Source: Macrococcus epidermidis (GTDB taxonomy: Bacteria > Bacillota > Bacilli > Staphylococcales > Staphylococcaceae). Taken from it: 64,000 nucleotides of DNA. The stretch lies in contig NZ_PZJH01000001.1 of the NCBI RefSeq assembly GCF_003259695.1, positions 744,001 through 808,000 on the forward strand, written 5' to 3'. The number at the start of each line of letters is the position of its first letter. The stretch's first letter is position 1. The position numbers and the translations under genes were made by a program. Shown here one piece after another: positions 60,022-60,643 of the stretch. Under the pieces are notes generated by a model. The model saw nothing but the letters and a program-made list of their open reading frames with translations, was not told the origin of the DNA and ran no database searches.

Positions 60022-60064
60022 TATAGACAGGACGCAAATCAAATATTGCCGCCTGTCTATTTTT
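60022..60064 (+). terminator. terminator after the Spo0M-like gene
   Basis: ATAGACAGG and CCTGTCTAT form a stem around an 18-base loop with additional partial pairing, followed by TTTTATT. Confidence 0.75.
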
Positions 60065-60100: not shown

Positions 60101-60187
60101 TTAATATTTATCTTCAACTTCCGGTACAATACTTACAAATAAGCGTTCAATGGCACATAAAATAATCAGTGATAAACAGCCATACAT
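60101..60187 (-). CDS. 28-residue hydrophobic peptide ORF
   Basis: On the minus strand ATG (60187) follows AAAGAGGTGATTGTA, a strong ribosome binding site. The peptide starts MYGCLSLIILCAIERL, is hydrophobic to about residue 21, then ends acidic (PEVEDKY); stop TAA at 60103-60101. The size and layout resemble small membrane peptides such as type I toxins, but I do not recognise a family. Its start lies in a 14-bp inverted repeat. Confidence 0.5.
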   Translation of the reverse strand: MYGCLSLIILCAIERLFVSIVPEVEDKY

Positions 60188-60224
60188 TACAATCACCTCT
60201 TTCTTAAGTCGATTGTAATGTATG
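60181..60224. repeat. 14-bp inverted repeat around the peptide start
   Basis: CATACATTACAATC (60181-60194) and GATTGTAATGTATG (60211-60224) are perfect complements 16 bases apart. In the minus-strand RNA the right arm holds the start codon of the 28-residue ORF and the loop holds its AAGAGGT site; in the plus strand the repeat lies upstream of the truncated lacI-type gene. Confidence 0.85.
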
Positions 60225-60256
60225 AAACGATTTTCATAGCAAGGGGGAATTGCTTC

Positions 60257-60643
60257 ATGTCAAATATTCGTGATATCGCAAAGGAAGCAGGTGTGTCAGT
60301 AACCACTGTATCCAGAGTAATAAATAATCATCCATATGTTACAGAAGAGAAACAACTCGCACAAAAAATACTGAAACAAACGAACTTACCTGATGCGTTA
60401 ATTGTGACCAATGATGCCCACTGTGCAGGACTATATGCAGAGTTTCAGAATCAAGGCATTAAAGTGCCAGAAGACATTGCACTCATATCCTACGAAAACG
60501 GTGAACTATCACAGGTAAATAACATAACAAGTATCGATCTGCCATTATTACAAATGGGAGATCGTAGTGTGGAATTAATACTGTCTGACTCGGCAACATC
60601 AGAGGAATTGTCGTCAAAATTGATTATTAGAAAGTCAACTTGA
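60257..60643 (+). pseudogene. LacI-family regulator with large internal deletion
   Basis: ATG 60257 follows AAGGGGG. Residues 1-33 are a complete LacI helix-turn-helix (MSNIRDIAKEAGVSVTTVSR, NNHPYVTEEK). The text then jumps to the end part of the sensor domain (QLAQKILKQTNLPDALIVTNDAHCAGLYAEF... VPEDIALISYENGELS) and ends with the usual LIIRKST. About 190 residues, including the hinge and most of the ligand domain, are missing, but the frame is kept; 128 residues remain against ~330. It probably cannot act as a normal regulator. Confidence 0.82.

Follow-up and report, generated by a model that had tools for sequence, protein, structure and literature searches.

The peptide gene and its conservation

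We analysed a window of 64,000 nucleotides of Macrococcus epidermidis DNA, in which a 28-codon open reading frame (ORF) and a lacI-family gene flank a common control region (table 1). The two genes are divergent here, as in every genome that carries the peptide. Upstream of the ORF, translation from an alternative GTG (60196) would lengthen the peptide by three residues; because this codon overlaps the Shine-Dalgarno (SD) sequence, the ATG at 60187 is the likely start. The lacI gene has its own SD sequence, AAGGGGGA, serving the ATG at 60257. Past the peptide stop codon, a hairpin able to end the mRNA is found in all six species with the peptide. A role as leader peptide was considered and rejected, since no gene lies close downstream on the same strand.

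Table 1. Features of the lacI–peptide locus (positions in the window).
Feature	Position	Strand	Remarks
Terminator hairpin	60023..60060		inverted repeat common to spo0M-like gene (plus) and peptide mRNA (minus)
28-codon ORF, MYGCLSLIILCAIERLFVSIVPEVEDKY	60101..60187	-	ATG at 60187, TAA at 60101; one hydrophobic segment, residues 3-21; orthologues in five other genomes
Inverted-repeat arm 1	60181..60194		SD end, start codon, first peptide codons
Peptide SD, AAAGAGGTGAT	60192..60202	-	read from sequence; GAGGTGATT same in 6/6 species
Inverted-repeat arm 2	60211..60224		TTACAAT on minus strand; 2-nt overlap with lacI operator
Candidate -10 box TACAAT, peptide promoter	60212..60217	-	invariant in six species; predicted
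LacI-type operator	60223..60236		TGAAACGATTTTCA here, TGAAACTCGTTTCA or TGAAACGAGTTTCA in relatives; palindrome conserved
lacI-family regulator, 128 codons	60257..60643	+	186 codons deleted in frame compared with 314-aa orthologues

The initial annotation of this DNA had suggested looking for the peptide in related genomes. A DNA search of 60 of these located the region in six, one of them from another genus-level group: M. goetzii, M. bohemicum, M. caseolyticum, two further Macrococcus isolates and the window genome, which together represent two genus-level groups. The ORF has 28 codons in all six, with no indels, frameshifts or stops; the peptide reads MNGVLALISLCVIELLVVSIVPKVEDKY in genome G009 and MNGILALLSLCLIELFIVSVVPKVEDKY in G003, and the residues G, C, IE, VS, VP and DKY are invariant. 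Coding constraint was evident at both ends of the divergence range, with Ka of 0.20–0.29 against Ks of 1.1–1.5 for the most distant pairs and 0.03–0.05 against 0.19–0.27 for the closest three orthologues. Over pairs, silent changes per site exceeded replacement changes about 4- to 18-fold. Judged from these comparative sequence data, the ORF is a real, conserved gene, and the original description of a hydrophobic 28-residue ORF with a strong SD sequence is borne out in six genomes.

The description of the product as a membrane-type peptide also agrees with its single hydrophobic segment, in which a 19-residue stretch reaches top hydropathy scores of 2.2–2.75 among the orthologues. A conserved Glu within this stretch counts against the membrane reading, as does an additional Arg that the peptide of the window genome carries there and that is absent from every relative.

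A profile search of 108 genomes of the family and 157 of the order returned no homologues beyond the six, and no relatives were found among viral contigs or plasmids; the gene is present as a single chromosomal copy. No profile in Pfam, NCBIfam or PADLOC matched the peptide, while PHROGs gave one weak match (E 0.055) to a family of unknown function. An Rfam scan across the region yielded nothing credible, and a literature search found nothing on the peptide or on Macrococcus small RNAs. The peptide thus defines a small-protein family absent from the curated libraries searched.

The divergent regulator and its operator

The partner protein combines the Pfam domains LacI (helix-turn-helix, HTH) and Peripla_BP_3 (ligand domain), placing it in the LacI family, and scores far under all NCBIfam equivalog cut-offs. 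The gene is intact in the five relatives, which encode 314-residue orthologues. Against these, the truncated lacI recognized earlier in the window proved to be an in-frame deletion of 558 nt (186 codons), with imperfect short repeats flanking the missing part. The deletion spares most of the HTH but removes the hinge and the bulk of the ligand (effector) domain.

Linkage between the two genes is strict. The LacI-family orthologue and the peptide occur together in six of six genomes, and the peptide is found in none of the other 102 among the 108 family genomes. The partner orthologues share at least 76% identity; the next-best LacI proteins reach at most 38% and come without the peptide. No similar peptides were found beside these LacI relatives in other staphylococcal genera, a point against the module reading. 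The pair lies on the spo0M side in five genomes and has a different neighbourhood in G009, while G004–G007, of the same genus, have neither gene. Co-occurrence, joint absence and the second neighbourhood together indicate that lacI and the peptide gene are a unit, moving together.

The interval between the spo0M-like and NUDIX-like genes is a variable insertion spot. We observed it without the lacI–peptide pair at L087, L088 and L089 (G006, G007 and G005): the NUDIX-like gene comes directly after the spo0M-like gene in G007 and G005, and G006 has another gene there.

In the six-species alignment, the control region reads, in the peptide direction, lacI start and SD sequence, TGAAACnnGTTTCA, [CA]ATTACAAT, a spacer, the SD sequence GAGGTGATT and ATG; the spacer varies in length, with 14 additional nt in G003 and G002. 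The operator palindrome TGAAACnnGTTTCA thus sits in the region common to both divergent genes. It occurs in perfect form once each in G001, G008 and G009, at the lacI–peptide site only, and the window operator is one base off the palindrome. One-mismatch sites are about as frequent as those of a reversed-pattern control, and a wider operator regulon is therefore not claimed. Among the one-mismatch sites examined, two recur across species, one within a ribosomal-protein gene and one, present in all six, upstream of atp genes. Separately, a palindrome, TGAAAACCGTTTCA, lies upstream of an atpI-like gene (L101, L103, L105 and L106, near position 601), conserved in the four genomes examined; the sequence is also present in the remaining two and resembles a LacI/CcpA-type site.

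Next to the operator, TTACAAT is invariant in all six species and would serve as the -10 box of a peptide promoter, with RNA predicted to start near 60205. The sole -35 candidate, TTGCTA, is poor (TTGC, with a 19-bp spacer), so the promoter assignment stays provisional.

The inverted repeat and alternative readings

The two repeat arms are complementary at 14 of 14 positions around a 16-nt loop. The window holds eight perfect inverted repeats with arms of at least 14 and loops of at most 30 nt, compared with none in four first-order Markov resamplings. When the upstream sequence was resampled 2000 times, pairing with the start region never extended to 14 pairs. The 14-bp repeat of the initial annotation is thus exact and beyond chance, and its geometry was also described correctly: in a fold of about -21 kcal/mol the start codon is paired and the SD sequence lies mostly in the loop. 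The annotation had gone on to propose that this hairpin controls the start. Here, an mRNA beginning upstream of arm 2 would fold and hide the start codon until a trigger opened the hairpin. Four genomes speak for such a switch, with a perfect 14-bp repeat in the window and G001, a nearly perfect one of 13 bp in G008 and a shortened one of 10 bp in G009, all above shuffled sequences, and folds of -16 to -21 kcal/mol. In G003 and G002, however, the start-side arm is altered (GATTTTAATG, GATTGAAATG) with no compensating change, leaving a longest perfect pairing of 6–7 nt, a longer loop and folds of -6 and -10 kcal/mol, although the peptide and TTACAAT are kept. The initial annotation had named relatives with a conserved repeat and no ORF as a refuting observation; the reverse was seen, an ORF that is conserved and a repeat that is not. 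Moreover, the SD sequence is mostly in the loop, hence open, and TTACAAT is more readily taken for a -10 box than for one side of a hairpin. If it is a -10 box, the upstream arm lies outside the mRNA. The repeat arises because [CA]ATTACAATC faces GATTGTAATG, and an inverted repeat at a start site can come about where a promoter box and a ribosome-binding site face each other; an RNA switch is not required. We therefore consider hairpin control unlikely. Nor does the mirror arm look like a copied start region: it does contain an ATG (60218, plus strand) in the lacI frame, but this has no SD sequence, and the arm reads ATTTATG in G009 and G003.

The initial annotation had also offered a toxin-like peptide or a small regulator. 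The second option may hold; for a toxin we found no positive evidence. A type I membrane toxin silenced by antisense RNA, of the Fst/PepA1 or holin-like type, would be of similar length, with one hydrophobic segment, a charged C-terminal end, a strong SD sequence and a hairpin terminator common with the other strand. Yet the PxxxG (or PxxxGC) motif is absent from all six orthologues, no Pfam toxin family is matched, and the region has no par-type direct repeats (DRa/DRb), the longest exact repeat being 7–10 nt. No conserved antisense promoter was recognized, and the terminator hairpin also ends the spo0M-like gene. A single chromosomal copy with no relatives on viral contigs or plasmids, linked strictly to a protein repressor, likewise argues against a toxin, which we regard as improbable and a minor rival to a modulator of a membrane protein. 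As for an ORF arising by chance within a control region, its shortness and the lack of matches in curated family libraries might suggest this, but amino-acid conservation over Ks >1, a reading frame uninterrupted in all six species and a conserved SD sequence make it barely credible.

A probable repressor-controlled membrane peptide and known systems

A single-pass membrane peptide that is controlled by a repressor and tunes a membrane protein is, in our view, the best reading and a fairly probable one. The two-gene module would consist of a LacI/CcpA-type repressor and a divergent, small monocistronic mRNA for the 28-residue peptide. Bound to the operator in the common intergenic region, the repressor would keep both its own gene and the peptide promoter repressed until released by a metabolite ligand; switching is thus probably by repressor rather than by RNA hairpin. 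The peptide may then insert in the membrane and, on the model of other small membrane proteins, bind and tune a single membrane protein. This could be a transporter, but the target is a guess, as neither a transporter gene nor a sugar gene borders the module. More tentatively, we suggest that the dedicated repressor has the peptide as its only target besides itself, forming a minimal metabolite-sensing switch whose repressor is lost in the window isolate. If true, the whole output of such a switch would be one membrane modulator.

Because the 186 codons missing from the window lacI include the hinge and the greater part of the ligand domain, the peptide probably escapes repression in this genome and is expressed uncontrolled. 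Together with the one-base operator change and the additional Arg, the deletion may perhaps reflect early decay of the module. With the regulator, a likely operator and a natural, putatively derepressed mutant in hand, function is directly testable in non-model staphylococcal relatives.

The closest parallel in logic is the SgrR-SgrS/SgrT system of enteric bacteria, in which a dedicated transcription factor likewise lies beside the gene for a small peptide acting on a membrane protein, SgrT inhibiting PtsG (PMC4021124, PMC3901232). SgrT is longer, with 43 residues against 28, and its coding sequence lies inside a base-pairing sRNA; the two peptides are not related in sequence. SgrR is an activator, not a LacI-type protein. 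Autoregulated repressors of the LacI/CcpA family share with the partner protein the LacI HTH, the periplasmic-binding-like domain and an operator upstream of their own gene, but the partner faces a lone membrane-peptide gene and no sugar operon. Fst/Ldr type I toxins (par of pAD1, PepA1), a family defined by the PxxxG (or PxxxGC) motif in the membrane segment, resemble the peptide in their single span of about 30 residues, charged C-terminal end, bidirectional terminator and structure near the SD sequence (PMC7472228). The peptide differs from them in having no PxxxG, no direct repeats and no evident antisense RNA, and in its linkage to a protein repressor.
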